From Paracoccus aerodenitrificans (lineage in GTDB: Bacteria > Pseudomonadota > Alphaproteobacteria > Rhodobacterales > Rhodobacteraceae): 64,000 nucleotides of DNA. The stretch is from NCBI RefSeq assembly GCF_027913215.1, contig NZ_CP115780.1, forward strand, positions 124,001 to 188,000, read 5' to 3'. How positions within the stretch are numbered: the stretch's first letter is position 1; the number at the start of each line of letters is the position of its first letter. The position numbers and the translations under genes were made by a program. A model generated the notes under the pieces. The model was given only the letters and a program-made list of their open reading frames with translations, made no database searches and was not told the origin of the DNA. Of the stretch, positions 1-42,841 are shown in pieces.

Positions 1-2195
1 AGTGCTGCCACGGCGGGGCTGATGATCAACGGATAAAACACCCCTGCCGCCATCGGAAAGGCGACCACGTTGTAAGCCACGGCCCAGAACAGGTTCTGGT
101 GCATCTTGCGCAAGGTGGCGCGCGACAACTCGATGGCCCCCACGACATCGTAGGGATCGCTTTTCATCAGCACGACATCGGCGCTTTCCATCGCCACGTC
201 GGTGCCCGCACCGATGGCAAATCCGACATCGGCCTGGGTCAACGCGGGTGCGTCGTTGACACCGTCACCGACCATGCCGACCTTCTTACCCTGGGCCTGA
301 AGCTCTTTGACCTTCTCGGCCTTTTGGCCCGGAAGAACATCTGCCAGCACAATGTCGATGCCCAGCTCGCCCGCGATCCGCCTTGCGGTACCTTCGTTGT
401 CGCCGGTCAGCATCGCCACCTCGACGCCGCGTGCGCGCAGCTTGGCCACGGTGGCCTTGGCGCTCGGACGCGGCGCATCAGCGATGGCGATCAGGCCCAG
501 CATCCGTCCGCCCTGCGCCACATGCACAACCGTGCGGCCCTCGTCCTTCAGGCGCTCGGCCTCCGCCGTCAGGGTGCCGACGTCGATACCCTCCTCGTCC
601 ATCAGGCGCCGATTGCCGACCAGCACGGTCTTGCCTGCGACTTCGGCGCGCGCGCCGCGGCCTTCGAGGTTGAGAAACTCGGCCATCTGCGGGACGTCGA
701 GGTCCGCCGCGCGTTCGACAATGGCGAGCGCCAGCGGGTGGTCCGAGCCGCGATCGACGGCCGCCGCAGCACGCAGCGCGTCATCTTCGGTGCTGTCCTC
801 AGCAGCCACGACTTCGACCACGCGCGGTTCGCCCATCGTCAACGTGCCGGTCTTGTCGAAGATGATCACGTCAAGCTTTGTCGCGCCTTCCAGCGCACCC
901 GCATTCTTGAACAGGATACCGTGCTGCGCCCCTAAGCCTGTGCCCACCATCACCGCCATCGGCGTAGCAAGCCCAAGCGCGTCCGGGCAGGCGATAACGA
1001 AGACGGTGATCGTCAGCGTCAGTGCGAACAAAAGCGGAGAGCCGATCCACCAGAACCAGACCGCGAAGGTTGCAAGTCCGATCACGACGGCGATCAGCAC
1101 CAGCCATTGTGAGGCTTTGTCGGCCAGAAGCTGGGCGGGTGCCTTGGAGTTCTGCGCCTCCTGCACCAGCTTGACGATCTGCGCCAGCGCGGTGTCGGCC
1201 CCGACCTTGGTGGCGCGGTAACGGAAACTGCCGCTCTTGTTGATGGTGGCGCCAATCACGGTGTCGCCAACGATCTTGTTGACCGGCATGGACTCGCCTG
1301 TCAGCATGGATTCGTCGACCAGTGATGCGCCTTCGACAACCTCGCCATCCACAGGGATCTTGTTGCCGGGCCGGATCAGCACGATCTCGCCCTCAAGTAC
1401 TTCGGAGGTAGGCACCTCGACGTCTTGCCCGTCGCGGATAACGGTCGCCATCGGCGGCGCAAGATCGAGAAGCGCCCGGATCGCCGCCGAGGCCCCTGCC
1501 CGCGCGCGCATCTCCAGCCAGTGACCCAACAGGATGAACACCAGCAGCACCGCCACCGCCTCGTAGAATTGCACGCCCGGAAAGAAGAAGGTAGACCCGA
1601 CGCTGAACACATAACCGGTGCCAACCGACAGCACGACCAGGACCGCCATGTTCAGGATGCCGTTGCGCAAGGCGCGCCAGGCGGCGACGAAGAACGGCCA
1701 GCTTGGCCAGATAATCGCGGCACTACCCAGGAAGAACAGCCACAGATCCAGTTCCAGCCCGAAGGGCGGCGCGGGTGGCGTGAACAGGCCACCCATTGGC
1801 GAATAAGTGAAGATCGGGATGGTGAACAGCAGCGCCACCCAGAAGCGGTTGCGCATGTCGCGGACCATGCTGGCCATGTCCATGCCACCGCCGTGGCCCA
1901 TCTCGTGCGCCATCGCGTCGTGGCCAGCCGGGGCCTCTGCGCCAGACATTTGATGGTCGGCATGGCAGACATGGTTCGGAACCCGCTCCCCGGCGCAGTG
2001 GAATCTGCAGGCCTCAACCGTGTTGCGCAGCTCTTCCTCGCCCACTGCCGTCTCGTCGTATTGGACTGTCACGCTTTCCGATGCCGGGTTCGCTTCGGCT
2101 CTGTGCACTCCGTCGAGAGCTGACAAATGGCGTTCGACCGCGAGATGATCGAGTTCCTCGAACAGCCCGCGGACCTCAAGGGTCAATGATTTCAT
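1..2195 (-). CDS. P1B-type heavy-metal (copper-like) translocating ATPase, C-terminus cut by window edge
   Basis: Pumps a transition metal across the inner membrane using ATP. The reverse strand reads openly from an ATG at 2195 to base 1, giving 731 residues; the end of the last membrane helix is outside the window. In order: an N-terminal HMA-like fold (about 1-75) with no CxxC but a CRFHC, a Met/His-rich stretch (about 78-110), membrane helices, an actuator domain with TGES, the membrane motif Cys-Pro-Asp at 403-405, the phosphorylated Asp447 in DKTGT, and the GDGVND hinge. The layout suits Cu-type pumps, but CPD replaces the usual CPC or CPH, so the metal is uncertain. It is transcribed away from the patatin gene and lies near the complex I-like operon that carries heavy-metal-binding domains. 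Family is certain; copper as substrate is inference. Confidence 0.93.
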
Positions 2196-2459: not shown

Positions 2460-3365
2460 TTGACGGATTTCACGAAACCAGTCGGCAAGACGCACAAATC
2501 CTTTGCCCTCGTGTTAAGTGGTGGCGGGGCGAGAGGCCTGTCACACGCCGGTGTCCTACGCGCCCTCGTCGCAAGGGGCTATACCCCGAGCGCGATCGTA
2601 GGGGTGTCCATGGGTGCGGTCGTCGGCACCACATACGCCATGAACGACGATTGGTTCGACGCATTGGTCGCCATGGACACCAGCGGGTTTCCGGCAACCC
2701 CGGACTTTCGCTTGCCAGGTCTAACCGCTCGGATGAAAGGCCTTCGAACCGCTTTGCTTGCCGCGCGGGACATGTACTTTGGCTGGGGAGTTGGAGCGCC
2801 TACCGAGACATGGGGCCGCAGCGTCCTGTCCAGTCTGACGCAAGGTAAAAATCTTGAGAATGGTCGCATCCCGATCTTTGTCTGCGCGACGGATATGCTG
2901 ACCGGGAAACGTGTGGTTTTCGGCAAGGGGAATGCCACAGATTACATCTATGCAAGCGCGGCGCTCGCCGGAATATTGCCACCCCTGGTCGATGGACCGC
3001 ATGTGCTGATGGACGGGGCTTACGCAGACATAGCGCCGGTCGACGTTGCGAGGGCTACAAGTGCCGAGATCGTGATCGCCGTCGACCCAAGCCAGCGCGA
3101 AAACACCATTGGCCCGAAAAACGGGATGCAGGCGATGCTGCGATCCATAGAAGTCTGCCAGTATGAACATGCACGGTTGCGGTTCGCGCAGGCGGATCTG
3201 GTGATCCGGCCTGAATTCGGACGGTCGATCGGCACACTTGAATTCGGTCTAAAGCGCCACTGTATCGCGGCTGGGGCCGTGGCCACCCGCCGCGCTTATG
3301 GTGATATCGAGACGCTGCTTAATCCCGGGAATGCGGAGCGAATGGCCGAGCCGCTGGCAGGCTAG
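2460..3365 (+). CDS. Patatin-like phospholipase family protein (RssA type)
   Basis: A predicted serine hydrolase acting on acyl esters or phospholipids. The 301-residue protein has the patatin oxyanion motif GGGARG at 21-26, the nucleophile motif GVSMG with Ser50, and the partner aspartate in DGA at residue 185. These form the Ser-Asp dyad of the family. There is no clear signal peptide, so it is probably cytoplasmic or peripherally membrane-bound. The start is TTG, supported by a GAAGG ribosome site about 7 bases upstream; the nearby ATG at 2445 hits a stop after five codons, and the next in-frame Met is already inside the GVSMG motif. It stands alone on the plus strand, facing the nuo-like operon tail-to-tail. 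Substrate unknown. Confidence 0.88.
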   Translation: MTDFTKPVGKTHKSFALVLSGGGARGLSHAGVLRALVARGYTPSAIVGVSMGAVVGTTYAMNDDWFDALVAMDTSGFPATPDFRLPGLTARMKGLRTALLAARDMYFGWGVGAPTETWGRSVLSSLTQGKNLENGRIPIFVCATDMLTGKRVVFGKGNATDYIYASAALAGILPPLVDGPHVLMDGAYADIAPVDVARATSAEIVIAVDPSQRENTIGPKNGMQAMLRSIEVCQYEHARLRFAQADLVIRPEFGRSIGTLEFGLKRHCIAAGAVATRRAYGDIETLLNPGNAERMAEPLAG

Positions 3366-3414: not shown

Positions 3415-4773
3415 TCAGCCGGGAAACACTCCCGCAAATAGCCCCATCAGCGCCGTGACCAGCGCGGTCGCCCAGAGAACGACCAACAGCGGCGGCGCCA
3501 TCTCAGTCCGGCCCGCATCGCCCTCGCGCGCCTGATACATCGACACCACTATGCGCAGATAGACCGCCAGCGCCAGCACACTGTTGAGGATGCCGATCAC
3601 CGCCAGCCACAGATAGCCGGTCTCGATCGCGGCGCCGAACAGCAGCACCTTGCCGACAAAGCCGAAGAGCGGCGGAATGCCGGTGAGCGACAGCAGGAAC
3701 ACGACCATCGCCACGCCGACCACCGGTCGCGCGCGGCCGAACCCCTTGAAATCGTCCAGATTGCGGCCCGCGATCATTATGACTGCAAAGGCTCCCAGGT
3801 TCATCGCCACATAGGCCGCACCAAACACGATTACCGAAGGCAGGGCCAGCGCGCTGGTACCGAGCGCCACGATCCCCATCATGAAATAGCCCGCCTGCGC
3901 AACCGAAGAATAGGCCAGCAGCCGCACGGCATTGGTCTGCACCAGAGCCGCCAGATAGCCGAGTGTCATCGTCACTGCCGCGATCAGCGCGACGACGAAC
4001 GGCCAGCCGGTGGCTACCGGCAGATCGCGCAGCACCTGCGCAAAGGCGAAGATCGCGGCAACCTTGGTGATGACCGACAGGAACGCCGCGACCGAGACCG
4101 GCGCGCCGTCATAGGCGTCCGGTGCCCAGAACTGGAACGGCACCAGCGCCGCCTTGTAGCCCAGCCCGATCAGCACCGCGACCAGCCCCGCCAGCGCGAT
4201 CAGCGGCTTGCCATCGAGCGCCCCGAGCTCGGAAAAGAGCGTCGACCCGGCCCCACCGAACCAGAAGGTCAGCCCGTAGATCATCACCGATCCGGTGACG
4301 GCGCCGAACACCAGATATTTCATCGCCGCCTCGGTCGCGGCATCGTTGCGCGGCCAGGCCACCATCGCGAAGGAGCCGAGGCCCGTCAGGACCACGCCCA
4401 GGACCAGCAGCATCATGTCGCCACCGCCCGCCAGCATCAGCGCCCCCAGCGTCACCAGGCACAGCAGCACATAAACGCTGCCCTCGCGGTCCTTCCCGGC
4501 GATCTCGGCCCGCGTCATCAAAAGCGCCAGCGCGGTGCCCGGCAGCAAGATCAACTTGGCCCAGCCGGACAGCAGATCGACGCGGTAGGTGCCGCCAAAG
4601 ACGCTGGTGTCGGCCTCCAGCAGCGGAAGGGTCAGCGCGGTGGACAGACCCAGCCCGATCAGCCCGAACGCCAACGCCAGACGGGGCGCGCGCAGCATCT
4701 CGGCCACCAGCATCAGCACGACAGTGGAGGCCAGCATCAGCTCGGGAAACAGAAAGGACAGGTCGCGCGCCAT
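3415..4773 (-). CDS. nuoN: NuoN-like antiporter subunit of a complex I-like assembly
   Basis: A multi-helix membrane subunit of the Mrp/Nuo proton-channel family, 452 residues. The region FQFWAPDAYDGAPVSV keeps the NuoN pattern around the half-channel, and the Lys in FLSVITK is present, but the normally conserved His before the Trp is Gln. I place the start at the ATG at 4773, where MARDLSF matches a NuoN N-terminus; its ATG shares one base with the nuoM stop (TAATG). The longer upstream reading lies inside nuoM and is not native. It is the last gene of the eight-gene operon, with no terminator hairpin evident in the 49 bases before the patatin stop. It probably conducts protons or Na+ within the assembly. 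Confidence 0.92.
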   Translation of the reverse strand: MARDLSFLFPELMLASTVVLMLVAEMLRAPRLALAFGLIGLGLSTALTLPLLEADTSVFGGTYRVDLLSGWAKLILLPGTALALLMTRAEIAGKDREGSVYVLLCLVTLGALMLAGGGDMMLLVLGVVLTGLGSFAMVAWPRNDAATEAAMKYLVFGAVTGSVMIYGLTFWFGGAGSTLFSELGALDGKPLIALAGLVAVLIGLGYKAALVPFQFWAPDAYDGAPVSVAAFLSVITKVAAIFAFAQVLRDLPVATGWPFVVALIAAVTMTLGYLAALVQTNAVRLLAYSSVAQAGYFMMGIVALGTSALALPSVIVFGAAYVAMNLGAFAVIMIAGRNLDDFKGFGRARPVVGVAMVVFLLSLTGIPPLFGFVGKVLLFGAAIETGYLWLAVIGILNSVLALAVYLRIVVSMYQAREGDAGRTEMAPPLLVVLWATALVTALMGLFAGVFPG

Positions 4774-6233
4774 TAGAATTGCAGTGCCCGCATCGTCGCG
4801 TCGATCATGCCCAGCAACCAGGACGGCGCGACCCCGATAAGGATGATGAGGATGAGCAGCGGCACGACGGCCTGCATCTCGCCGCGGTCCAGATCGGGCA
4901 TCGCCGCCCATTTCTCGTTCGGCTCGCCCAGAAATACCGCCGCGATCGCGCGCAGGTAAAGCCCCGCCGTCACCACAATGGCGATAATCGCCACGATGGC
5001 CCAGGGCTGAGCATTCAGCGTGGCCAGGAAGATCTGAAATTCAGCCGGGAAATGCGCCAACCCCGGCAGCCCGAGCGAGGCAAAGGCCGACAGCACGAAG
5101 GCCCAGCCCAGCCATGGCACCTGCCCCAGCAGCCCGCCGAACGCGGTCATCTCGCGTTCGTGGGCGCGCGACTGCAACATGCCGACGAGAAAGAACAACG
5201 CCCCGGTGACGACGCCGTGGCTGACCATCTGCAAGGTCGCACCATTGAGCGCGACCGCCCGCAAGTCAGGGTCCAGCGTCAGCGCCGCCACCGCGACGCC
5301 GATCACCACATAGCCCATGTGGTTCACCGACGTATAGGCGATCATCTTCTTCAGATCTGACTGCGCCAGCGCCACGAAGGCACCGTAAAGGGCGCTGAAT
5401 ACGCCAAAGGCCAGCACCACCTGACCGGCCTGCGCAAAGGCGTCGGGCGTCATCTGTAAGGCGAAACGCACAAGGCCGTATGTGCCGAATTTCAGCATCA
5501 CCCCGGCGAGGATCACGCTGCCCACGGTCGGGGCCTGCACGTGGGCCGCGGGCAGCCAAGTATGCACTGGAAAGGACGGGATCTTGACCGCGAAGGTGAA
5601 CAGCATCGCGATCAGCGCCAGCATCGCCGCCAGCCCAGTCAGTGGCGGCGCCTCGATCCACAGCCGCATGTCAAAACTTCCCGTGGCCAGATACAGCCCG
5701 ATGATCGCCAGCAACAGCGGCAGCGAGCCTAGCAGCGTGTAGATGAAGAACATCAGCCCGGCGCGCTGGCGTTCTTCATAGCCCCAGCCGACGATCATGA
5801 AGTACATGCCGACCAGCGACACTTCAAAGAAGACGTAGAACAGGAGCGCGTCCAGCGCCGCGAAAGTGCCGATCGACGCGGTCTCCAGCATCAGCATCAG
5901 CGCGACAAAGACCGCCGGGCGGTCGGTGATCCGCGCCGCATAGATTGCCGACAGGAAAAACAGCAGCGAGGTCAGCAGGATCAGCGGCAGGCTTAGCCCG
6001 TCGATGCCCAGCCGGTAGGCCGCGCCGATGGCCGGGATCCATGCGATCTCCTCGACCTGCGCGAAACCGCCTGGCAGCGTGCCCCGCGCCCAGATCGCCA
6101 GCGTCACCACGAAGGTCAGCCCGGTGGTGGCGATGGAAACGCCATGGGCGATGCGCGCCGACTTGTTTGGCAGGGCCATCAGCAGCACGCCACCAAGAAG
6201 CGGCAAAAAGACGGAGACCGAGAGAAGGGGCAT
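4773..6233 (-). CDS. nuoM: NuoM-like antiporter subunit of a complex I-like assembly
   Basis: Proton-channel membrane subunit, 486 residues, close to normal NuoM length. It keeps the functional residues of pumping NuoM: the helix-5 glutamate in FYVFFEVSL, the helix-7 lysine in AVKIPSFPVHTWL, and the discontinuous-helix sequence HVQAPTVGSVILAGVMLK with its lysine. Residues for ion translocation therefore look intact even though the operon lacks the redox module. It ends in TAATG with nuoN and lies 17 bases after nuoL. Expected in the inner membrane between NuoL and NuoN. Confidence 0.94.
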   Translation of the reverse strand: MPLLSVSVFLPLLGGVLLMALPNKSARIAHGVSIATTGLTFVVTLAIWARGTLPGGFAQVEEIAWIPAIGAAYRLGIDGLSLPLILLTSLLFFLSAIYAARITDRPAVFVALMLMLETASIGTFAALDALLFYVFFEVSLVGMYFMIVGWGYEERQRAGLMFFIYTLLGSLPLLLAIIGLYLATGSFDMRLWIEAPPLTGLAAMLALIAMLFTFAVKIPSFPVHTWLPAAHVQAPTVGSVILAGVMLKFGTYGLVRFALQMTPDAFAQAGQVVLAFGVFSALYGAFVALAQSDLKKMIAYTSVNHMGYVVIGVAVAALTLDPDLRAVALNGATLQMVSHGVVTGALFFLVGMLQSRAHEREMTAFGGLLGQVPWLGWAFVLSAFASLGLPGLAHFPAEFQIFLATLNAQPWAIVAIIAIVVTAGLYLRAIAAVFLGEPNEKWAAMPDLDRGEMQAVVPLLILIILIGVAPSWLLGMIDATMRALQF

Positions 6234-6250
6234 GGCGGGGTCGTCTTTCT

Positions 6251-8146
6251 TCAGGAGGACATCGGTAAGATCAGCAGCACCGCCGCGATGACGGCAATGC
6301 CCATGACGGTCAGGGCGAGTTCGCGGTGGATGAGCCCGCTTTGCAGCAGGCGCAGGCGGCGGCCGGCGGCAATTGTCCGGTCGACAAGGCCGAAGATCAG
6401 CCCGTCGATGCCTTTTGTGTCGGTGGTCTCGGCGCTGTCACCCAGGCGCAGGTTCATCCGGCCCACCTGAAGGGTCGCGGCATAAAGCCGGTTGTCTGAA
6501 CGCTCGGCACTGGATGCGGTGCCAAGGCTCAAGATCCGCACAAGGCCAAGTTGCGACGCCAGCAGACGCCGTTCGAAACCTTCACAGGCGGCGGCAAAAG
6601 CCAGCGACGGGCGCAGCACCAGCCCGTCCATACCGCCCGCGACGGCAAAGCCGCGCTGCGCCATCGGCAGAACCGGCCCCATCAGGCGAGTAGGTTGGAT
6701 GAACCAGCCCAGCACCAGGCCGCTCAGCGCCGCCATAAGCCCGAGGATCATCGCGGTTCCTTCCGGCGGCAGTTCGGCCTCAAGCAGATGTTCCAGCGGC
6801 GTGAAGGCGAACCCAAGCCCCGCCGCCAGCGCCGTCAGCACCGCCATGCCCGCACCCATCCAGCCCATCCCCTTGCCCAGAACGGGCTGGGCCTCGCCCT
6901 GCCACAGCACCCGCAGCGCCCGCGCCATATAGGCCCCGGTCAGCACCGTGCCTGCCAGCGCCAGCGGCGCGAGCCATACGACCCCGGGGGCCGCCAGCGC
7001 GGCGGCAAGGATCGCGTCCTTGGAAAAGAACCCCGCCAGCGGCGGGATCCCCGCCAGCGCCAAAGCAGCAATGCCGAAAGCGGCCAGCACCAGCGGTCGT
7101 GCCCGGCCCGCGCCCGCGACCGCATCCATGTCGGTGCTGTCGCGATCATGCTGGAACACACCCGCCCCCAGAAAAAGCGTGCTCTTTATCGCCGCGTGGG
7201 CGATAAGGTGCAGCAGCGCCGCCACCGGCACCCCCGCGCCAATGGCCAGCAGCATCAGCCCGTACTGGCTGGAGGTCGAGGCGGCCAGCAGCCGCTTCAG
7301 GTCCCGCTCGGCCAGCGCGATCAGGCCGGCAACGACGGCGGTGACGCCGCCCACCAGCCCGACCGCAATCAGCGCGCCTGCGGGCAGCATCGGGGTCACG
7401 CGGATCAGCAGGATCGCCCCCGCCGCCACCAGAGTCGCGGAATGCAGCAAAGCGGAGACCGGCGTCGGGCCGGCCATGGCGCGCTGCAACCAGTCCTGCA
7501 ACGGCACCTGCGCCGACTTGCCCATCGCGCCGATCAGCAACAGCAACCCGGCGACCAGTGCGGGCGTGCCGGTGATATCCAACGTGGCCGAGATTTCCGC
7601 GGTGCCGGCCCAGCCGATCAGCACGAAAATCCCCAGATAAAGCCCCAGATCGGCGCTGCGGGTATACAGAAACGCCCGCATCGCGGCACCGGGCACGCCG
7701 TCACGCCCATGCCAGAACCCGATCAGCAGATAGCTGGAAAAACCGATCAGTTCCCACGCCGCCAGCACGGTGATCCAGTCGCCCGCCAGAACCAGCGCCT
7801 GCATCGCGGCGACAAACAGCAGCAGGATCCCGAAAAAGCGCGGCTTCTCGGGGTCGCTGCGCATGTAACCGACAGCGTAGATCAGCACACAGGCCGCCAC
7901 CGTCGCCACCATGGCCGAAAACACCGCCGTCAGCGGCGTCGCGACCAACCGCAGCGGCATCTGCGGCAGCCCCGGCAGGACCAGTTGCATGGTGCCACCG
8001 GAAACGATCCCCGCCAGCAACGCCATCGCCGCGACAAACCCAAGGCCGACGCCCGCCAGTGCAATCGCTTCGGGTGCGCGGCGCAGCACAAGCGCCGCGA
8101 GACCCGCCAGCAGCGGCGCAAGGATAATGAGCGCCAGCATCGTCAT
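6251..8146 (-). CDS. nuoL: NuoL-like antiporter subunit of a complex I-like assembly
   Basis: The distal proton-channel subunit, 631 residues. It keeps the helix-5 glutamate (WELIGFSSYLLIGFWH), the helix-7 lysine in GKSAQVPLQDWL and the lysine in GFFSKDAIL. In the helix-7/8 loop the usual His is Gln and the usual Asp is Arg (QDWLQRAM), a departure from respiratory NuoL. The C-terminal part beyond about residue 480 is shaped like the NuoL lateral arm and extra helix. The start overlaps the nuoK stop in an ATGA, which signals translational coupling. Related NuoL-like proteins also work outside complex I, for example with DabA or in Mrp antiporters, so family membership does not prove a respiratory role. 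Confidence 0.93.
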   Translation of the reverse strand: MTMLALIILAPLLAGLAALVLRRAPEAIALAGVGLGFVAAMALLAGIVSGGTMQLVLPGLPQMPLRLVATPLTAVFSAMVATVAACVLIYAVGYMRSDPEKPRFFGILLLFVAAMQALVLAGDWITVLAAWELIGFSSYLLIGFWHGRDGVPGAAMRAFLYTRSADLGLYLGIFVLIGWAGTAEISATLDITGTPALVAGLLLLIGAMGKSAQVPLQDWLQRAMAGPTPVSALLHSATLVAAGAILLIRVTPMLPAGALIAVGLVGGVTAVVAGLIALAERDLKRLLAASTSSQYGLMLLAIGAGVPVAALLHLIAHAAIKSTLFLGAGVFQHDRDSTDMDAVAGAGRARPLVLAAFGIAALALAGIPPLAGFFSKDAILAAALAAPGVVWLAPLALAGTVLTGAYMARALRVLWQGEAQPVLGKGMGWMGAGMAVLTALAAGLGFAFTPLEHLLEAELPPEGTAMILGLMAALSGLVLGWFIQPTRLMGPVLPMAQRGFAVAGGMDGLVLRPSLAFAAACEGFERRLLASQLGLVRILSLGTASSAERSDNRLYAATLQVGRMNLRLGDSAETTDTKGIDGLIFGLVDRTIAAGRRLRLLQSGLIHRELALTVMGIAVIAAVLLILPMSS

Positions 8147-8454
8147 CCCTTCAACTCGCGCGCTTCTTCCATCTCAACCGACCCGCGCACCCGGAACCGC
8201 GCGATGGCGATGGCAAAGCCGACCGCCATTTCGACCGCCATCACCGCCATCACGATCAGCACGAACATCTGACCGGCCGGTTCATCGGGATGCAGATAGC
8301 GCCAGAAGGCCACCAGATTGACCAGTGCTGCGGCCAAAATCAGCTCGACCCCCATGATGATCATCACCAGGTTCGTCTGGCTCAGCGCGCCGTAAAGACC
8401 GATACCAAACAGCCCCGCGCCGACGCTGAGCGCGATCATCATCTCCACAATCAT
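8143..8454 (-). CDS. nuoK: NuoK-like membrane subunit
   Basis: A small three-helix membrane subunit, 103 residues, the usual NuoK/MrpC length. The buried glutamate in MGVELILAAALVNLVAF (helix 2), needed for proton translocation in complex I, is present. A second acidic residue lies in VMAVMAVEMAVGFAI (helix 3). Both ends overlap their neighbours by four bases (ATGA), so it is translated with nuoJ and nuoL. In complex I it sits between NuoJ and NuoN and carries part of the hydrophilic axis. Confidence 0.94.
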   Translation of the reverse strand: MIVEMMIALSVGAGLFGIGLYGALSQTNLVMIIMGVELILAAALVNLVAFWRYLHPDEPAGQMFVLIVMAVMAVEMAVGFAIAIARFRVRGSVEMEEARELKG

Positions 8455-8966
8455 TTGCTCTGCTCCGCGTTGGGGACGATGGCCACCATCGTGGCCGCAA
8501 CCATGGCCGTCAGGATGGTCAGCCCTGCCGACTGGAAGATGAACATTGACCGGCCCAGCAATTCGCGGCCCAGATCGGCGGCCTGTTCATGCGCACCCGG
8601 CACAGACAGGGCGACCGGACCCCAATCGGGCAGCCAGACCAGCAGCAGCGCCGCCAGCAGCCCAATGCCCCCGGCCCAGAGCGACAGGCGTTTCTGGTGG
8701 GTCATGTCCATTTTGCCCATGCCGCCGGGATCCATCATGAACATCACCATGAAAATCGCCATCACGCTCATTTCCGTGGCCATCATCATGATCTGCAACA
8801 CGCCCAGAAACTCGGCCTGCATGACCAGAAACATCGCCCCTATCGCGGTTTGCGAAAACAGCAGCGCCAGCGCCGAGCGCACCATCGAATGGGTGCGGAA
8901 AACCACGACGCCGAACCACACCGCCGCGCCGCCGAAGAACGCCAAGAAGATCATCTGAACCGTCAT
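8451..8966 (-). CDS. nuoJ: NuoJ-like membrane subunit
   Basis: Membrane subunit of 171 residues that in complex I forms part of the junction to the quinone chamber. The start is the ATG at 8966 (MTVQMIFLAFF), which makes an ATGA overlap with the nuoH stop. The longer upstream reading is nuoH coding sequence in another frame. The conserved first helices read FLAFFGGAAVWFGVVVFRT and SALALLFSQTAIGAMFL, with the helix-3 region LQIMMMATEMSVMAIFMVM rich in Met. The Met richness resembles metal-exposed membrane proteins but may be chance. Confidence 0.92.
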   Translation of the reverse strand: MTVQMIFLAFFGGAAVWFGVVVFRTHSMVRSALALLFSQTAIGAMFLVMQAEFLGVLQIMMMATEMSVMAIFMVMFMMDPGGMGKMDMTHQKRLSLWAGGIGLLAALLLVWLPDWGPVALSVPGAHEQAADLGRELLGRSMFIFQSAGLTILTAMVAATMVAIVPNAEQSK

Positions 8967-9862
8967 ATCGGCACCACCAGCGCGATCACGCCCACGACAA
9001 AGATATTGGCCAGCGCCAGCGAGATCCCTAGCTTCCAGCTCAGCGCCAGGTAACGCGCTTCGCGGATGCGCGGCATATAGCGCCCGACGCTCAGCATGGC
9101 CGCGGCCACGGCCAGGATCTTGATCGCGCTCCAGGCCCACGCGGGCAGCCACGGGCCCAGCCAGCCGCCCAGATAGAAGGTCACGGTCGCCCCCGCCAGC
9201 GCCAGGATAATGACCATCCGCGCCAGCCGCAGCACTGCCAGCCGCACGCCGGTATATTCCGCCTCGACCCCGCCGGCCAATTCGCCGGTCGCATCGGGCA
9301 GGTCCAGCGGCGGCAGCCAGGCCAGCCCCATCGCCGCCACGACGAACAGGACAAACCCCATCGGCTGGTACAGCACGTTCCAGAGCTGCGCCTGCGAGGC
9401 GACGATCTCAACCGTCGAGAGCGACTCCGCCCGCATGGCGACGGCGGTGATCGGCATCACGATCAGCATGGCATAGGCAATGAACTGGCCCAGGAACCGC
9501 CAGCCCGCGATCATGGCGTAGGCCCCGTTCGGCCCCCAGCCCGCCATGATCAGCGCCACCAGCACATAGGCCAGCGCAGCGTTCAAAAACAGCGCTCCGG
9601 TCGCCAGGTCGGTGATGATAAGCCCCGGCGCCAGCGGGATCACTGCCACCGCCATCAGCCCCGCCACCAAAAGCAGCACCGGCCCAAGCTCAAAGAACAA
9701 CCGGTCAGATTTGCGCGCCAGCAGCGATTCCCGCCCCATAAGCGCCAAGGCGGCCCAGGCCGGACCGGTCAGGCTCAGGTGCCCATGCACGGCCCATCGT
9801 TCGATGACGGCCAGCGCATAGGCCCCGGCGGCGAGCGACAGGAGAACGACAAGAATGCTCAT
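8963..9862 (-). CDS. nuoH: NuoH-like membrane subunit, altered quinone-site loop
   Basis: Membrane subunit of 299 residues that in complex I links the quinone cavity to the proton channels. The acidic loop remains recognisable as DLPDATGELAGGVEAEYTG, but the usual preceding ENRxPFD signature is lost (here LAWLPPLDLPD). The first cytoplasmic loop, normally PNRVGP, is not recognisable either. This agrees with loss of the quinone residues in the fused NuoD-like partner. It starts with an ATGA overlap on the fusion gene and ends in an ATGA overlap with nuoJ. Overall it looks like a NuoH kept for coupling, not quinone chemistry. Confidence 0.9.
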   Translation of the reverse strand: MSILVVLLSLAAGAYALAVIERWAVHGHLSLTGPAWAALALMGRESLLARKSDRLFFELGPVLLLVAGLMAVAVIPLAPGLIITDLATGALFLNAALAYVLVALIMAGWGPNGAYAMIAGWRFLGQFIAYAMLIVMPITAVAMRAESLSTVEIVASQAQLWNVLYQPMGFVLFVVAAMGLAWLPPLDLPDATGELAGGVEAEYTGVRLAVLRLARMVIILALAGATVTFYLGGWLGPWLPAWAWSAIKILAVAAAMLSVGRYMPRIREARYLALSWKLGISLALANIFVVGVIALVVPI

Positions 9863-11925
9863 CCACGCACCTCCCAGGGCGACAGGTCGAGCGAGGCAAC
9901 GGCGCTCAGGGCATCGCCCAGTTCCTGCTGCGCCGTCACCGTTTCGACAAGGGCGATGTTCACGTCTGTCGGCGTGTCGAGATCGGCCTCGACCACCTTG
10001 CCATTGGCCAGCTTCACGCGCAGCGACGCCGTGCCGCGCGGTGTTTCGATGCGAGCCTCGCCCTCGCCCGACACCCTGTCCACATCCGGCACCTGCGGCA
10101 CAGCAATCATCCCGGCGGCCGCGATCAGGTCGAGGCTTTGGGCGATCTCGTCGCAGCGCAGCCGCAGCCGCGCCAGCGCATCGCCGCCGTTGCGGACGCG
10201 CATTTCGAACCCGAGATCCTTCAGCGTTGGATCACCCGTTCGGGCATCCGATCCGCCACCTCGCGCCCGGTCCACCGGGCCGCTGGCCGGGGCGTCATTG
10301 CCGATGCGCGCGATGCGTCTAAGCCGCATCCGCATCAGCGGGGCCGCCTGCACCCGGCGCGACAGCCGCCGGATCGCCCCAGCCTGCGTGGCAATCCCGG
10401 CAACGTCGGCACCTTGAACGGCCAGTTGCAACGCCCCAGCGCGCGCGGCGAGCCACAAAAAACCCGACTGAAGGCCGAACTCGGCCAGCCAGTTCAGGTG
10501 GCTGGCGATCCGCTCGCGTTCCACGGCGGCGGCGCGGCCACGGCGCGCGTCATGGTCGGGCTCGACGCCGGCGGCCACCTCAATCGCAGCGCAAGCCAGC
10601 GCGCGATAGGACACGCTGCTGAGCGGCATCATGGTGGCCAGACGCTCGACGAAATCGGCCACCCTCATCTGCGGCCCATCCATCAAATCCGTCGCGCCGA
10701 CAAGGCTCGTGGCGTCGCTGGCCGCAACGGTATCGCCATCCAGCGTCAACGTCAGCCGCAGCCCAGCCGGCAGGCCGGGAAAGAACGGCCCGAACGGCAC
10801 CTTGATCCAGTCCATCTGTAACCCGTCGCTGCTGCGCGGCTGGTCCTTGGTCATCTCGACCATCGACATGAAATGCGGCTCGATCCCGTCGATAGTGGCC
10901 TTGGAGTGGCCGCCATGTCCGGCATGCCCATCGTGGCCGGAATGGTCCTGCTGTTTGCCATGACCGCCGTGACCGCCATGCCCGTGACCGTGACCGGGAC
11001 CGTGGCTTTCCACCTCCTCCGCCTTCACCAGGTTCATGCCGCATTTAGGGCACTTGCCCGGTGCATCGCTGATCACCTCGGGGTGCATCGGGCAACTATA
11101 TGCCCCCGACCCGCCCGCCTTGTCGTCGTGACCGGCATGATCGCCATGCGCGGAGGGCGCGTGGCTTGCGTGCCCATGCCCATGCCCATGCCCGTGACCG
11201 TGGCTTTCCACCTCCTCCGCCTTCGCCAGGTTCATGCCGCATTTGGGGCACTTGCCCGGTGCGTCGCTGATCACCTCGGGGTGCATCGGGCAAGTGTATG
11301 CCCCCGACCCGCCCGCGTCGTGAGCGTGGCCCGCATGTGCGTGATCGGCGGGGTTTGGCCTGTCCTCCCGGGGCATGTCGTGGCCACCGTGCCCACCATG
11401 TCCATCGGACGCTGTTTCGCGCGGCACCAGCGTCATGCCACATTTGGGGCAGTCTCCGGGGGCGTCGCGGACGATTTCGGGGTGCATCGGGCAAGTGTAT
11501 TCCACGCGCACCTCAAGAGCGGGGGCGTTAAACTCCCCGCTGTCAGCGCGAAACGCGCCCGCGGCGATCACGCGGCGCAGATCGGCCAGCCCGGCCCGTG
11601 TCAGCGGGGCCGACACGTCCGCATCGGGCAACGGGGCGATGTCGCCTGCGCCCAGTGCCAGGATCGCGCGGGGGCGCGGCATCTGCGCGTAGGTGACGGC
11701 GGCGGCATCGCGCAGACCGTCCGGAATCGGGCCGACGACGATGAGAACGTCGGCATGGCGCGGGGTGCCTACAACACGCAGGTGCGCATTGGCAAGGTCG
11801 ATCCCCATCGACCGCGCGACAGACGGGCCGGGCAGCACAAAGGCCGTCAGATCGCGCGCCATGGCCGCCGCGACCGCCCGCCTGATCCCGTACATCGCGC
11901 CCTCTCGCGCCCCGGCTATGGTCAT
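9859..11925 (-). CDS. NuoB-like / triple heavy-metal-binding domain / NuoD-like fusion protein
   Basis: A 688-residue fusion at the place where nuoB-nuoC-nuoD would lie. Residues 1-about 120 resemble NuoB (VVGTPRHADVLIVVGPIP, then AQMPRPRAILALGAGD). Three heavy-metal-binding domains follow at about 143-166, 210-233 and 276-299, each with CPMHPE and CPKCGM, joined by His/Gly-rich linkers. From about 350 to the end it resembles NuoD (FGPFFPGLPAGLRLTLTLDGD, later an ERERIASHLNWLAEFGL helix). The NuoB part has no cysteine, so it cannot ligate cluster N2. The NuoD part lacks the quinone-binding His and Tyr. The start is the ATG at 11925, overlapping the nuoA stop as ATGA; reading further upstream runs into nuoA. 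I infer a metal-responsive or metal-carrying peripheral arm on a membrane ion pump. The actual reaction is unknown. Confidence 0.85.
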   Translation of the reverse strand: MTIAGAREGAMYGIRRAVAAAMARDLTAFVLPGPSVARSMGIDLANAHLRVVGTPRHADVLIVVGPIPDGLRDAAAVTYAQMPRPRAILALGAGDIAPLPDADVSAPLTRAGLADLRRVIAAGAFRADSGEFNAPALEVRVEYTCPMHPEIVRDAPGDCPKCGMTLVPRETASDGHGGHGGHDMPREDRPNPADHAHAGHAHDAGGSGAYTCPMHPEVISDAPGKCPKCGMNLAKAEEVESHGHGHGHGHGHASHAPSAHGDHAGHDDKAGGSGAYSCPMHPEVISDAPGKCPKCGMNLVKAEEVESHGPGHGHGHGGHGGHGKQQDHSGHDGHAGHGGHSKATIDGIEPHFMSMVEMTKDQPRSSDGLQMDWIKVPFGPFFPGLPAGLRLTLTLDGDTVAASDATSLVGATDLMDGPQMRVADFVERLATMMPLSSVSYRALACAAIEVAAGVEPDHDARRGRAAAVERERIASHLNWLAEFGLQSGFLWLAARAGALQLAVQGADVAGIATQAGAIRRLSRRVQAAPLMRMRLRRIARIGNDAPASGPVDRARGGGSDARTGDPTLKDLGFEMRVRNGGDALARLRLRCDEIAQSLDLIAAAGMIAVPQVPDVDRVSGEGEARIETPRGTASLRVKLANGKVVEADLDTPTDVNIALVETVTAQQELGDALSAVASLDLSPWEVRG
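11001..11316. repeat. Two near-identical 118-bp repeats encoding heavy-metal-binding domains 2 and 3
   Basis: Bases 11001-11118 and 11199-11316 match at all but a few positions, with a period of 198 bases (66 codons). Each unit encodes the CPMHPE...CPKCGM domain plus the adjacent linker. The first domain (about 11428-11499) is clearly diverged, so domains 2 and 3 come from a recent in-frame duplication. The sequence between them is low-complexity GGH/HGH coding DNA, which could promote further copy-number change. Confidence 0.9.
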
Positions 11926-12284
11926 TGCCGCCTCAACGCGCCCTGGCTCCAGCCATAGAGCAGGCCCAGGAACAGGATTGAGAGGAAAACGCCCATGTCG
12001 AGCAATGCGATCAGCCCTTCTTCGCGGTAGACGACCGCCCACGGATACATGAACGCCATCTCCATGTCGAAGGCCAGAAACAGCAGCGCATAACCGGCAT
12101 AGCGCGCATGATAGCGGACCCAGACCGGATCGCGCGACAAGGTACCGGCCGTGGCGGGCACGTCCTTGCCCGGTTCCGAGCGCGTGCGCCCGATGGCCCG
12201 GGCGAGCCCGTAAAGGCTTAGCACGAAACCGAACACACCGACACTCAGCCCGAAAAGGATCGCGTATTGGGAAAGCTCGCTCAT
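11922..12284 (-). CDS. nuoA: NuoA-like membrane subunit, first gene of the complex I-like operon
   Basis: Three-helix membrane subunit, 120 residues. The diagnostic motif LFLAFDMEMAFMYPWAV with its acidic pair is intact. The loop before it, where complex I has the redox-sensitive ECG cysteine, instead reads GTLSRDPVWVRYHARYAG with no Cys. A good ribosome site (GAAGGAGG on the coding strand, around 12292-12299) precedes the ATG at 12284. The gene leads the eight-gene minus-strand operon, whose promoter should be in 12285-12540. Most junctions down to nuoN overlap by one or four bases. Confidence 0.93.
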   Translation of the reverse strand: MSELSQYAILFGLSVGVFGFVLSLYGLARAIGRTRSEPGKDVPATAGTLSRDPVWVRYHARYAGYALLFLAFDMEMAFMYPWAVVYREEGLIALLDMGVFLSILFLGLLYGWSQGALRRQ

Positions 12285-12478: not shown

Positions 12479-12540
12479 GTGGCCGGTGATTTAGCGTTGC
12501 ATGATTGACGATCCGAACAAACAGGACAGAGGGAAGTCAA

Positions 12541-13227
12541 ATGTGCCTGTCCGCTCAAGTCAGCTTTGCCGCCAGTGTTTTTCTTGTTGGCGGCGGCACG
12601 GCCATTTCAATTGTGGCTTGGCGGCGCAACAAACGCTATCTCCCGCTTGCCCTGATGCCGCTTTTCGCCGGACTGCAGCAGTTTACCGAGGGTTTTGTCT
12701 GGGTCGGCATGAACGGAAACGATCCCCTGACGGTTTTGTGGGGGGCAATGGGGTTCATCTTTTTCACCTGGTTCATGTGGCCGATCTGGGTCCCCTTCTC
12801 GGTCTACGTGCTTGAACCGGACGACAGCCCCCGAAAGCGGTTGTTCCGCCTCATGGCGTTGATCGGGCTGGCTTTCGGACTGCTGCTTTACATACCGCAC
12901 GGGCTAAACAGTGACATGGTGGTGGTCGAGGTCAACAATCAGTCTCTGGCCTATGAAAAATCCATGTGGCTGGATTTCATGATGCCACGCTGGCTGACCA
13001 ATACAATCTATGTGACCCTTATCACCCTCCCGCCAGCGCTGTCGCATTACAAACATATGCGCCATTTCGCCCTGACGCTGGTGGCGGTGATCGTGATCGA
13101 TATCGCCTTTCTCCAGTTTGCCTACATTTCGTTTTTCTGCCTGCTGGCGGGGCTCGCAACGCTGCATCTGGTGTACATCATTTTGACCAACAAATGCGCC
13201 CGTGAATGCCCTGAATTGTTCGCCTGA
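12541..13227 (+). CDS. DUF6629 family integral membrane protein
   Basis: A predicted seven-helix-like inner-membrane protein of 228 residues and unknown function. The N-terminus MCLSAQVSFAAS and the motif FAGLQQFTEGFVWVGM are characteristic of the DUF6629 family (usually MCFSAxASF...QQxxEGFVW). I chose the ATG at 12541 because a GAGGGAAG ribosome site lies a few bases upstream and the family signature begins there. A longer reading from 12505 is possible but lacks a signal. A cysteine-containing tail (NKCARECPELFA) ends the protein. It is divergent from the complex I-like operon and may share its regulation. Confidence 0.82.
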   Translation: MCLSAQVSFAASVFLVGGGTAISIVAWRRNKRYLPLALMPLFAGLQQFTEGFVWVGMNGNDPLTVLWGAMGFIFFTWFMWPIWVPFSVYVLEPDDSPRKRLFRLMALIGLAFGLLLYIPHGLNSDMVVVEVNNQSLAYEKSMWLDFMMPRWLTNTIYVTLITLPPALSHYKHMRHFALTLVAVIVIDIAFLQFAYISFFCLLAGLATLHLVYIILTNKCARECPELFA

Positions 13228-32133: not shown

Positions 32134-32166
32134 GTGACCCAGATCATTGCAATTGATCTGGGTCAT
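32134..32166. promoter_or_regulatory. Twin FNR-like boxes forming a large inverted repeat
   Basis: TGACCCAGATCA (32135-32146) and TGATCTGGGTCA (32154-32165) are exact 12-base inverted arms around a 7-base spacer. Each arm with its edge bases reads as an FNR-type box, for example TTGAT-CTGG-GTCA. They lie about 80 bases before the P1B-4 ATPase start and 143 bases before the divergent VIT start. This suggests shared low-oxygen control. Confidence 0.6.
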
Positions 32167-32245
32167 AGCCGACGTTGGACGGAATGAATTATCGGCTCCT
32201 CATGCGCCGAACCCGCCGCATGCGTGTCAACACAGGAAGCTTCCT

Positions 32246-34201
32246 ATGCCCAGCACCGCCCCTGTAAGTCTTGAAGAACGCCTCATGTTTCCCCTCACGC
32301 TCGCGGCGAGTTTCGGCATGGCGGCCGCCTTCTTCGGCACCTTCGTGCTGCCGGGGATCTGGCTCACGGCAGGGCTTGCACTTGTCTATCTTGCGGCCGG
32401 GCTTCCGACGGGGCTGCGCGCGCTTGGTGCACTTTTCAAGGACCACGTGCTCGACATAGACCTGTTGATGATCATCGCGGCTTTGGCCGCGCTTGCCGTC
32501 GGCGCCCCGCTGGAGGGGGCCGTTCTCCTCACACTCTTCAGCATTTCGGGCACGCTGGAGCATCGCGCTATGGGCCGCGCCCGCCGCGCGATCGAGGCGC
32601 TGATGGCGCTGCGCCCCGAGACTGCACTGCGGCTGAGCGCCACGGGCGCGACAGAGGAAATCCCCGTCGCGGCGCTTCGCGAGGGGGATTTGCTTGTCCT
32701 GCGTCCGGGCGCGCGCGTGCCCGTGGATGGCGTGCTTGTCACCGGCGAAGGCACGGTCGACGAGGCGACGATCACCGGAGAGTCGATGCCCGTCTCAAAG
32801 GTGCCCGGAGCGAAGCTTTTCGAGGCGACGGTCAACCTCAATTCCGTGCTGACCATGCGCGCAAGCGCCACCGTCGAAAGCAGCACCGTGGCGCGGATGA
32901 TCGACATGGTGACCGAGGCCCAAGCCGCCCGCGCGCCTTCCGAGACCTTCAGCGCCTGGTTCGGGCAGCGCTACACCGTGGCCGTGCTTTTGGGGGCCAT
33001 GCTGGCCTTTGTGGTTCTGTGGGGGATGGGGGCTTCCGCCTCCGACGCCCTCTACCGCGCTGCGGTGCTGCTGGTGGCGGCAAGCCCTTGCGCCGTGGTG
33101 ATCTCGGTGCCCGCCGCCATGCTGTCGGCGCTGGCGGCTGCGGCACGGGGCGGCGTGTTGTTCAAAGGTGGCGCGGCGCTTGAAGCCTTGGCAGAAGTGA
33201 AGAGCTTTTCCTTTGACAAAACCGGCACCCTGACCACCGGAGTTGCAGAGGTCACCGACCTCACCTCAGAGATCCCCGAGGGGCGCATGCTGGCGCTGCT
33301 CTCGGGTTTGGAGGCGCAGTCCGAGCATCCGATCGCCGCCGCGATCCGGCGCCGGGCAGAGGCCGAGGGGCTTGCCCCCGCCGCCATCCGGGATGTCGTG
33401 ACCCATCCCAGTGAGGGCATCACCGGGATCGACGAAGAGGGGCCGATCTGGGCCGGAAACCAGCGCATGCTGGAGCGGATGGGGGCGCGGGTCGATACGG
33501 CCGGGGCGCAGCGGCTGAAGGCCTCGGCCCAAACCGTCACCTGGATCGGGCGTGGCGAGCAGCTGATCGGCGGCGTCACGGTGGCAGACCGCCCGCGGCC
33601 AAGCTCTGCCGCCGGGCTTTCGCAACTGCGTGCGGCGGGGGTGGCGCAGCTGGCCCTGATGACCGGGGATCGCCGCCCGGTGGCCGAACGGATCGGGCGG
33701 GAGCTCGGCTTTTCCGATGCGGAGATCCACGCCGAATTGTTGCCGGAAGACAAGGTCAAACTGGTTGCCGCGCTTGCCGAAAAGGGCCGGACGGCCTTCG
33801 TCGGCGACGGGGTGAATGATGCCGCTGCCCTTGCCCGGGCGGATGTCGGCGTCGCCATGGGGGTTGCGGGCAGCGAAGTGGCGCTGCAGGCCGCAGATGT
33901 GGCGCTTCTGTCCGAGGACATGACCCGCCTTGCCGCCGCCCGGACACTGGCCTTGCGTACCCGCCGGATCATCCGGCAGAACCTCGGCTTTGCCTTGGCG
34001 ATGATGGTGCTTCTGGTGGTCTCGGCGCTATTTTTCGAGCTGCCTTTGCCGCTTGCCGTCATCGGCCATGAAGGGGGCACGGTTCTGGTGGTGCTAAACG
34101 GGTTGCGGCTGCTCGCCGATCCGATCCGCAATGATCGCGGCGCGGCGCGAAAAGCGGCCTCGCATCCCTCCTCCCAACCTCAAGAGGTTTCTCATGTATA
34201 A
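32246..34201 (+). CDS. P1B-4-type metal ATPase (SPC motif), Co2+/Fe2+ efflux class
   Basis: ATP-driven efflux pump in the inner membrane, 651 residues. It has no N-terminal metal-binding domain and few membrane helices, typical of the P1B-4 (CtpD/CoaT) class. Diagnostic residues are Ser280-Pro281-Cys282 in the membrane motif, phosphorylated Asp324 in DKTGT, GDGVND, and HEGGT starting at His608 in the last helices. The start ATG at 32246 has AGGAAGC upstream; earlier in-frame starts lie in the promoter region. Family work links this class to Co2+ or Fe2+ export, which suits the divergent VIT iron transporter. A truncated uspA overlaps its end by eight bases. Confidence 0.93.
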   Translation: MPSTAPVSLEERLMFPLTLAASFGMAAAFFGTFVLPGIWLTAGLALVYLAAGLPTGLRALGALFKDHVLDIDLLMIIAALAALAVGAPLEGAVLLTLFSISGTLEHRAMGRARRAIEALMALRPETALRLSATGATEEIPVAALREGDLLVLRPGARVPVDGVLVTGEGTVDEATITGESMPVSKVPGAKLFEATVNLNSVLTMRASATVESSTVARMIDMVTEAQAARAPSETFSAWFGQRYTVAVLLGAMLAFVVLWGMGASASDALYRAAVLLVAASPCAVVISVPAAMLSALAAAARGGVLFKGGAALEALAEVKSFSFDKTGTLTTGVAEVTDLTSEIPEGRMLALLSGLEAQSEHPIAAAIRRRAEAEGLAPAAIRDVVTHPSEGITGIDEEGPIWAGNQRMLERMGARVDTAGAQRLKASAQTVTWIGRGEQLIGGVTVADRPRPSSAAGLSQLRAAGVAQLALMTGDRRPVAERIGRELGFSDAEIHAELLPEDKVKLVAALAEKGRTAFVGDGVNDAAALARADVGVAMGVAGSEVALQAADVALLSEDMTRLAAARTLALRTRRIIRQNLGFALAMMVLLVVSALFFELPLPLAVIGHEGGTVLVVLNGLRLLADPIRNDRGAARKAASHPSSQPQEVSHV

Positions 34202-42388: not shown

Positions 42389-42481
42389 TATCTCAAGGCA
42401 ACCCTGACAGCCATCGCCAACGGCCACCCGCAAAGCCGCATCGACGACCTGCTGCCATGGAACTTCAAACCGTCAAGCTAA
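42389..42481 (+). pseudogene. IS66-family transposase, last 30 codons
   Basis: The frame YLKATLTAIANGHPQSRIDD followed by LLPWNFKPSS and TAA matches the C-terminus of IS66 TnpC proteins, which end in a helix and a LLPW motif. Nothing of the upstream gene is present, so the element was deleted up to the defence module edge. Confidence 0.7.
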
Positions 42482-42759
42482 GCCGACCGTGATGTCCTGC
42501 GAACGCTTACGAAGGTCGCGACCTCGTACACCTCGGCTTGGCCGATACGCAGCAGGTCCGCAAGCGCACGCAGATGCGCCGCCGAGATGTGCCCATGCGT
42601 GCGCTGAAGCGCGTGGAGGTGTTCGATCAGGCGATCCCGCACAGGCTCCGCGTCGATGAGCGCGCGGACCTCGGACAGCGCCGCCTCGTCCAGCATCCGG
42701 CCCCGGGTCTTGGCGACGGATCGCCCCTCTCGCGGCAGGCCCGCGGCCAGTTCCGTCAT
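42478..42759 (-). pseudogene. NuoE/FdsG-like subunit, N-terminal remnant
   Basis: About 93 codons from an ATG at 42759 (ribosome site AGGGAG). They encode the helical N-terminal domain of the 24 kDa-type [2Fe-2S] subunit: LIEHLHALQRTHGHISAAHL, ALADLLRIGQAEVYEVATF. The four iron-sulfur cysteines that should follow are missing because the reading frame runs into the IS66 junction. It most resembles the gamma subunit of NAD-dependent formate dehydrogenases. It is unlikely to serve the nuo-like operon 30 kb away. Confidence 0.65.
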
Positions 42760-42841
42760 CAGAAGCTCCCTTGCTCCGGATGCAGGCGGAGAAGATCTGT
42801 CGCCTTGGCCCTGTCCGGCCCGAGGGTGCACTCCGCCTGCG

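Follow-up and report, generated by a model that had tools for sequence, protein, structure and literature searches.

What can a complex I membrane arm do when its peripheral arm carries metal-binding domains and no redox centres? The question is raised by an operon of Paracoccus aerodenitrificans that lies in a 64,000-nucleotide stretch of contig NZ_CP115780.1 (positions 124,001 to 188,000, hereafter the window). On the minus strand, at window positions 3415-12284, eight genes overlap or abut in the order nuoA, a NuoB/NuoD-like fusion, nuoH, nuoJ, nuoK, nuoL, nuoM and nuoN. We suggest, with a probability of about 50%, that this operon represents a redox-inactive, horizontally mobile branch of complex I that works as a proton-coupled translocase for soft metals of the Cu(I)/Ag(I) type. 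The direction would probably be export.

A Pfam assignment was obtained for all eight proteins, and the matches of NuoA, H, J, K, L, M and N show that the membrane arm of complex I is present. The original prediction had described these eight genes in this order and these frames, including a fusion of NuoB, metal-binding and NuoD domains; all of them were seen, and Pfam agrees. Two start positions were revised, that of nuoJ to 8966 and that of nuoN to 4773.

The operon family and its sister branch

The nuoA-fusion-nuoHJKLMN family keeps its gene order across Pseudomonadota and Actinomycetota, where it is discrete and sporadic. Some members carry heavy-metal-binding domains (HMBDs) in the fusion protein; in a sister branch, the operon is the same but HMBDs are lacking. 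In the tree of NuoH (8963-9862; PF00146, 171.7 bits), HMBD-type and sister members formed one clade, separate from canonical complex I, with a support of 97/94. Where HMBD-type proteins have their HMBDs, the sister proteins have a His-rich or Gly/Met-rich linker that joins the NuoB- and NuoD-like domains. This linker is His-rich in actinobacteria, with a long GEH repeat in Pseudonocardia (locus L135, 13250-14725), and in Halomonas it contains GMMGG...PMAM. Therefore, the HMBD fusion could not be retained as the defining trait of the family. Nor did the metal domains turn out to be sporadic inserts in a working complex I. Among 120 listed homologues, the number of HMBDs per protein varied from 1 to 11 (motif count).

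The window belongs to a 198-kb contig, which has 15.4 kb at 99.5% identity in common with plasmid p2 of Paracoccus sp. SCSIO 75233, a plasmid typed as conjugative. Paracoccus marcusii CGMCC 1.8602 (L007) has an operon identical to the one studied here.

Separately, the NuoJ of Roseivivax and Acuticoccus (L134 and L138) has a long His-rich C-terminal tail.

The fusion protein and its lost redox centres

The most probable start codon of the fusion gene (9859-11925, minus strand like every operon feature below) is the ATG at 11925, which forms an ATGA overlap with the nuoA stop codon and gives a protein of 688 aa. Pfam revealed three PF19335 HMBDs (145 bits), a PF00346 NuoD domain (38.8 bits) and a PF01058 NuoB domain (21.6 bits). 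The HMBD repeats are at 11422-11499 (CPMHPE...CPKCGM, 59.7 bits), 11221-11298 (57.4 bits) and 11023-11100 (57.2 bits), and all three matches are over the curated cut-off. Their two best matches among solved structures were the copper ATPases 8ovl and 3rfu (LpCopA). The NuoB-like part (11506-11925) scored under the PF01058 cut-off of 27 bits; TIGR01957 and NF005012 also matched it, both under their cut-offs. It can be aligned through its PRH...QMPxPR core. For the NuoD-like part (9859-10812), the fold gave further evidence. The AlphaFold2 model of the fusion had a mean pLDDT of 75, with values of 77-98 in 10-residue blocks from residue 381 onward, and its best match in the PDB was the 49-kDa subunit of complex I (E = 3e-15), with E. 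coli HycE among the best. When a sister model was searched, the matches listed covered the NuoD part only; the assignment of the NuoB part therefore depends on sequence and not on fold.

The HMBD-type alignments retained 117 N-domains and 118 C-domains of 121 fusion proteins, and 116 N-domains entered the count of cluster N2 ligands. None of the 116 NuoB-like domains had Cys at any of the four N2 columns. Among the 115 sister sequences, Cys was found in at most two at any column, and 19 had one no more than two columns away from the third N2 site. In the NuoD-like domain, at the position that we take to be the quinone-site His, 117 of the 118 HMBD-type sequences have Phe and the remaining one has Ile; 8 of the 115 sister sequences have His there. 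The presumed equivalent of Nqo4 Tyr87 is Pro in 115 of 118.

We also surveyed the cysteines of [NiFe]-hydrogenases, restricting the motif and CxxC counts to proteins of at least 400 aa that start with M, V or L (78 of 120 HMBD-type and 115 of 120 sister proteins). A CxxC of the NiFe kind occurred in the last 330 aa of only 2/78 HMBD-type and 0/115 sister proteins, and in the alignment Cys was not among the four commonest residues at the NiFe columns. This loss of the paired CxxC ligands ruled out a relative of [NiFe]-hydrogenases whose NiFe site still works. As far as these residues tell, the peripheral arm is redox-dead.

A Met-containing motif, FMSMVxxTxxxPxSxDGLxM (10813-10872), precedes the NuoD core. 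Eight of its residues (F352, M353, S354, M355, D367, G368, L369 and M371) were invariant in 57 sequences, and the pattern M.M(4-16)DGL was present ahead of the core in 73/78 HMBD-type and 111/115 sister proteins.

As the original prediction stated, NuoC, E, F, G and I are missing from the operon: Pfam found neither the NADH module nor NuoC or NuoI among the eight genes. A canonical complex I operon lies on contig C5 of the same genome, with its own NuoB, C and D and also with NuoF, G and I. Genome-wide searches for the NuoB, C and E families recovered that operon, the fusion and one truncated NuoE-type fragment, with a single match for NuoC. Thus a second NuoB, a second NuoC or an intact NuoE that could be a dedicated partner was absent genome-wide; NuoF, G and I were seen only in the C5 operon, no genome-wide search having been made for them. 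The NuoE-type match (PF01257, window 42505-42639) covers only 45 of 145 profile positions and was rejected as evidence against the original prediction. It lies in a 144-aa frame (42478-42912, minus strand) that partially matches the 2Fe-2S thioredoxin fold and adjoins a TRAP transporter; this frame looks like a remnant.

Methionine columns in NuoA, NuoJ and NuoK

The most telling feature, which the original prediction had not included, is a methionine ladder in the small membrane subunits. We called a Met column family-specific when Met stood there in 90% or more of the family sequences but in no more than 10% of the canonical ones. The family sets comprised 26-31 sequences per subunit, and the canonical sets 50 (NuoJ), 54 (NuoK) and 52 (NuoH); for NuoA, L, M and N the canonical sets were small (3-4). 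NuoA, NuoJ and NuoK had 3, 11 and 4 such columns, that is, 18 over 394 residues. Comparatively, NuoH, NuoL and NuoM had none and NuoN had two, over 1,868 residues together.

NuoA (11922-12284; PF00507, 82 bits) carries FDMEMAFM beside the E-channel carboxylates; its M76 and M79 were present in 31/31 family members and 0/4 canonical sequences. NuoK (8143-8454; PF00420) keeps the two channel glutamates and has gained M31, M69, M72 and M76. NuoJ (8451-8966; PF00499, 69.8 bits for the longer frame) has 20 Met among 171 aa, and Met is its commonest family-specific residue, accounting for 11 of 26 such columns. In transmembrane helix 3 (TM3), the ladder covers residues 60-78 (8733-8789). In the Paracoccus operon it reads MMMATEMSVMAIFMVMFMM (also given as QIMMMATEMSVMAIFMVMFMMD), and its equivalents are FFMMAVEMTVMALFMVMFMMN in Halomonas and LMMIIEMVIMAVFMVMFMMN in Pseudonocardia. 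M61, 62, 66, 69, 73, 77 and 78 were found in all 26 family members and in none of 32 canonical sequences; TM3 contained 11-12 Met in 26/26 members compared with 2-5 in the 32 canonical ones. When 120 more relatives of a Pseudonocardia NuoJ were examined, 119 had a loose form of the motif and 18 the strict form, and the loose form was absent from the 32 canonical sequences.

Two methionines of the ladder fall at gate positions in the alignment. M62 aligns with the gate Tyr, which is Tyr in 32/32 canonical sequences. M66 aligns with a Val four positions further along, which by an offset that we take to apply is V63 in E. coli numbering. In a review, NuoJ V63 is named as blocking the path (PMC10212512), and the E-channel is formed by NuoA, J, K and part of NuoH (PMC10212512; PMC13324432). 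M62, 66, 69, 73 and 77 lie on one face of the helix (P = 0.003), although they are a chosen subset.

Residues of the proton path

The original prediction also held that the membrane subunits keep their ion-pump residues, and most of them do. In the conservation counts, orthologues at least 97% identical to the Paracoccus operon, less than 45% identical or with less than 70% coverage were excluded. NuoL (6251-8146; PF00361, 203 bits) keeps its key Glu/Lys/Lys in the listed sequences, and so does NuoM (4773-6233; PF00361, 222 bits) with Glu/Lys/Glu, the first Glu being Asp in 6/6 sister sequences. In the rows shown, NuoK has retained both of its glutamates and NuoA both of its acidic residues. 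The claim did not hold for two residues. The TM5 Glu of NuoN (3415-4773, 452 aa; PF00361 with the longer frame) was absent from every listed sequence (21 listed of 24 HMBD-type, and 6/6 sister); the NuoN lysines are kept, with Glu in place of one in L136. The SYE Glu of NuoH was absent from the Paracoccus operon, from the HMBD-type rows shown and from 7/10 sister rows, and three actinobacterial rows keep it.

Copper-type genes near the operon

We searched the flanks of the operon for copper-type genes, namely metal ATPases, multicopper oxidases, CsoR, CueR, CopB/C/D and cupredoxins. They were found near 12/33 HMBD loci and 8/10 sister loci, and in none of 20 control chromosome windows (19.9 kb each, four genomes). 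In Paracoccus, a heavy-metal P-type ATPase adjoins the operon (window 1-2195, minus strand, extending past the window edge) and shares 98.8% identity with the ATPase annotated at L082. The same type of ATPase, with an ACPDALG motif and a His/Met-rich N-terminus, neighbours the operon at L082 (24794-27160), L086 (6659-9043), L003, L004 and L008. Five ATPases that were checked beside sister operons and in Rubrobacter had the CPC motif and CASC domains.

A putative metal translocase

A complex I arm without an electron source or quinone site implies an energy input from elsewhere. Metal capture in the peripheral arm, together with methionines confined to the small E-channel subunits, suggests a soft metal that moves through the channel or acts on it. 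In the mechanism that we propose, the array between the NuoB- and NuoD-like domains (HMBDs, or His-/Met-rich stretches in the sister branches) would catch cytosolic metal and hand it to the conserved Met motif before the NuoD core, close to where the quinone site used to be. The metal might then enter the former E-channel, where methionines of NuoA, J and K stand beside conserved carboxylates and NuoJ TM3 offers a Met stripe. Proton flow through NuoL, M and N would power the cycle instead of quinone chemistry. Whether this amounts to a new class of metal transporter is a more tentative matter: the membrane arm would be a proton-driven Cu(I)/Ag(I) pump, peripheral metal capture would replace quinone reduction, and the E-channel would be a methionine-lined metal path. 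The original prediction of an ion-motive machine tied to the movement or sensing of transition metals gains indirect support from the NuoA/J/K methionines, the redox loss and the partial copper neighbourhood; the function itself is predicted.

Several observations weigh against the translocase. The Met path was read from sequence columns, not from a structure of the whole complex, and the E-channel runs sideways in the membrane, with no evident exit to the periplasm. When all nine TM3 methionines were taken jointly, a moment test showed no one-sidedness (P = 0.71). The neighbourhood is also uneven. No copper-type gene was present at 21/33 HMBD loci in the flank examined (1.3-13.4 kb, both sides together), 3 of the 12 positive HMBD loci (L018, L025 and L031) depend on a single weaker marker, and some copper-positive loci are near-copies of each other. 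Other windows of carrier plasmids also had a core metal gene in three of eight cases. The query proteins of the copper scan were taken from annotated operon loci; thus the plasmid counts are not independent and lean towards the hypothesis. In an unselected Rhodobacteraceae sample, a metal ATPase was nearby in 4/9 genomes, one of which had a match of just 34% identity; a fifth genome had a CueR-like match alone. The expectation that metal ATPases always accompany the operon therefore fails. The ATPase beside the Paracoccus operon has an ACPDALG (CPD) motif, not CPC as at the sister loci. Finally, genes of sulfur or lipid metabolism occur as well: a cyclopropane fatty acid (CFA) synthase was near the operon in 3/9 unselected genomes and at 2/19 HMBD loci, and SulP, ETHE1 and fatty-acid cis/trans isomerase (CTI) genes were near 3, 2 and 2 of these 19 loci.

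Other explanations of the operon

An unlikely but serious alternative is a metal-gated ion pump or antiporter. Copper on the array and on the NuoA/J/K methionines would switch the flow of H+ (or Na+/K+) in a stress response, and no metal would cross the membrane. Metal-binding arrays that vary while keeping one fixed place would suit a switch, as would antiporter residues that are mostly kept, and Mrp-type antiporters are redox-free relatives. However, a sensor has no obvious need for an invariant run of methionines along a transmembrane helix.

That the operon is a partial NDH-1 for salt or pH adaptation, the arm maintaining a proton or sodium gradient and the metal domains being accessory, seems improbable. 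This explanation comes from the literature on marine actinobacteria, whose partial NDH-1 (nuoAHJKLMN) has the same set of seven nuo genes as the Paracoccus operon. In Salinispora, these genes were listed as marine-adaptation genes (Penn and Jensen 2012, PMC3314556), and the account was taken up by Ian 2014 (PMC4018334), Sun 2018 (PMC6002675), PMC6676996 and PMC8622039. The partial NDH-1 is described as a pump of protons or sodium that serves life in seawater (PMC3314556 and followers), and several carriers of the operon come from marine samples. The actinobacterial members of our family are probably these published operons, as judged from the gene set; the actinobacterial sequences in our comparison came from relatives other than Salinispora. 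A NuoB/NuoD-like gene goes without mention in the excerpts of this literature, and the word "copper" is absent from the main text of PMC3314556 and PMC4018334. Against the salt or pH explanation, it is not evident what reaction would drive the arm in the absence of redox centres, and the Met columns and HMBDs are left unexplained. The same literature also contains carriers from copper-related sources: the source of Kocuria marina SO9-6 is printed as "copper miner" (Sun 2018, PMC6002675), and by implication in PMC6676996 the operon is also present in Streptomyces albidoflavus SM254, which came from copper-rich mine fluid. In both cases, the authors have osmotic stress in mind. In the open-access literature, we found no paper that links operons of the partial NDH-1 type to copper.

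It is still harder to accept a metal-dependent redox enzyme, in which copper bound to the HMBDs and methionines would exchange electrons with quinone and so drive pumping, as a copper:quinone oxidoreductase. Pfam and the models indicate that the cavity-forming subunits H and A and the NuoB/D scaffold remain, and multicopper oxidases and cytochromes c are found near several operon copies, but the quinone-site His and the Nqo4 Tyr87 equivalent are lost and the cofactor chain is absent.

An ordinary complex I with an odd insert, borrowing NuoC, E, F, G and I from the chromosomal operon, was rejected, because these genes are indeed present on C5 but in an operon with its own NuoB and NuoD, while the Paracoccus fusion lacks the N2 ligands and the quinone-site residues, falls in the separate clade (97/94) and has methionines at the gate residues.

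Relation to known systems

Respiratory complex I is one of several systems close to the operon, which shares with it the NuoA/H/J/K/L/M/N arm, a NuoB-like sequence, a NuoD-like fold and most channel carboxylates and lysines. Unlike complex I, the operon has NuoB and NuoD fused and its NuoA, J and K are rich in Met; it lacks NuoC, E, F, G and I as well as the ligands of the Fe-S cluster and of the quinone site. Mrp antiporters and DabAB use NuoL-type subunits without redox chemistry. Their partner subunits are different, and they are not known to have the set of NuoA/H/J with NuoB/D-like proteins; no DabA partner domain was found by Pfam among ten proteins scanned, and none of the small subunits MrpE, F and G among the eight operon proteins. 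Complexes like the group 4 [NiFe]-hydrogenases also have a large subunit of the NuoD type (the fold matched that of E. coli HycE), but the Paracoccus operon has no NiFe cysteines, Fe-S small subunit or ferredoxin subunit and has NuoA, J and K in addition. One such cluster, on Azospirillum AZO_p2 (L088), has an aldehyde ferredoxin oxidoreductase gene. In Ehr complexes, the large subunit resembles that of hydrogenases but lacks the NiFe ligands, and the small subunit carries Fe-S; lacking N2-type cysteines, the Paracoccus operon type falls outside them. The CPMHPE...CPxCGM domain is the same as in HMBD copper proteins (LpCopA 3rfu, 8ovl and a CusB family model), but here its copies sit inside a peripheral arm of the complex I type.

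If a translocase of this kind exists, a machine known to couple proton movement to electron transfer or ion exchange would now transport metal ions or react to them, giving an energised copper route beside P-type ATPases and RND pumps. Published "marine adaptation" genes would be re-explained, and the operon could serve as a marker for mobile metal tolerance. The family is also a natural experiment on coupling in complex I: it has lost quinone chemistry, N2 and the Tyr/Val gate of NuoJ and keeps most proton-channel residues, so that the steps needed by the membrane arm become testable.

Other neighbouring genes and variant copies

A sulfur or lipid context was considered as a common theme of the flanks, but it occurred less often than copper-type genes. 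SulP, ETHE1, CFA synthase and CTI genes were absent from 28 control windows, and it is possible that their enrichment is real, though less widespread. Loci without copper-type genes occasionally had SulP, CTI, CFA synthase or thiol-redox genes. A SulP transporter adjoins HMBD-type operons at L013 (529-2313), L020 (7836-9578) and L122 (1269-3050), and the latter two also have an ETHE1-type gene. CFA synthase or CTI genes lie near the operons at L009 (18554-19882), L022 (7343-8659) and L011 (3483-5987), and in G466, G485 and G544. The ergothioneine genes egtB and egtD are directly 3' of the operon of Halomonas KO116 (L133, 21865-24137), and L127 and L128 have genes that match them in length and place after the operon.

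Within the window, a DUF6629 gene (12505-13227, plus strand) is divergent from the operon; such a gene was also near 8/33 HMBD-type loci, several of them alphaproteobacterial. A patatin-like phospholipase gene (2460-3365, plus strand) lies between the ATPase and the operon, as one does in L082, and a second, more distant gene like that of a P-type ATPase is on the same replicon (32147-34201, plus strand).

Three variant loci were noted. The operon copy of Afipia birgiae (L006, 12996-16065) has cut nuoJ and nuoM genes, and its nuoK and nuoL were not found. Near the Sulfitobacter dubius operon, there is an additional piece of a NuoN-like gene (L086, 9777-11000, minus strand). The copy at L019 (688-9259) is a mosaic: identity to Paracoccus is 89-98% in nuoA, in nuoH and at the start of the fusion, and only 60-75% from nuoJ to nuoN.

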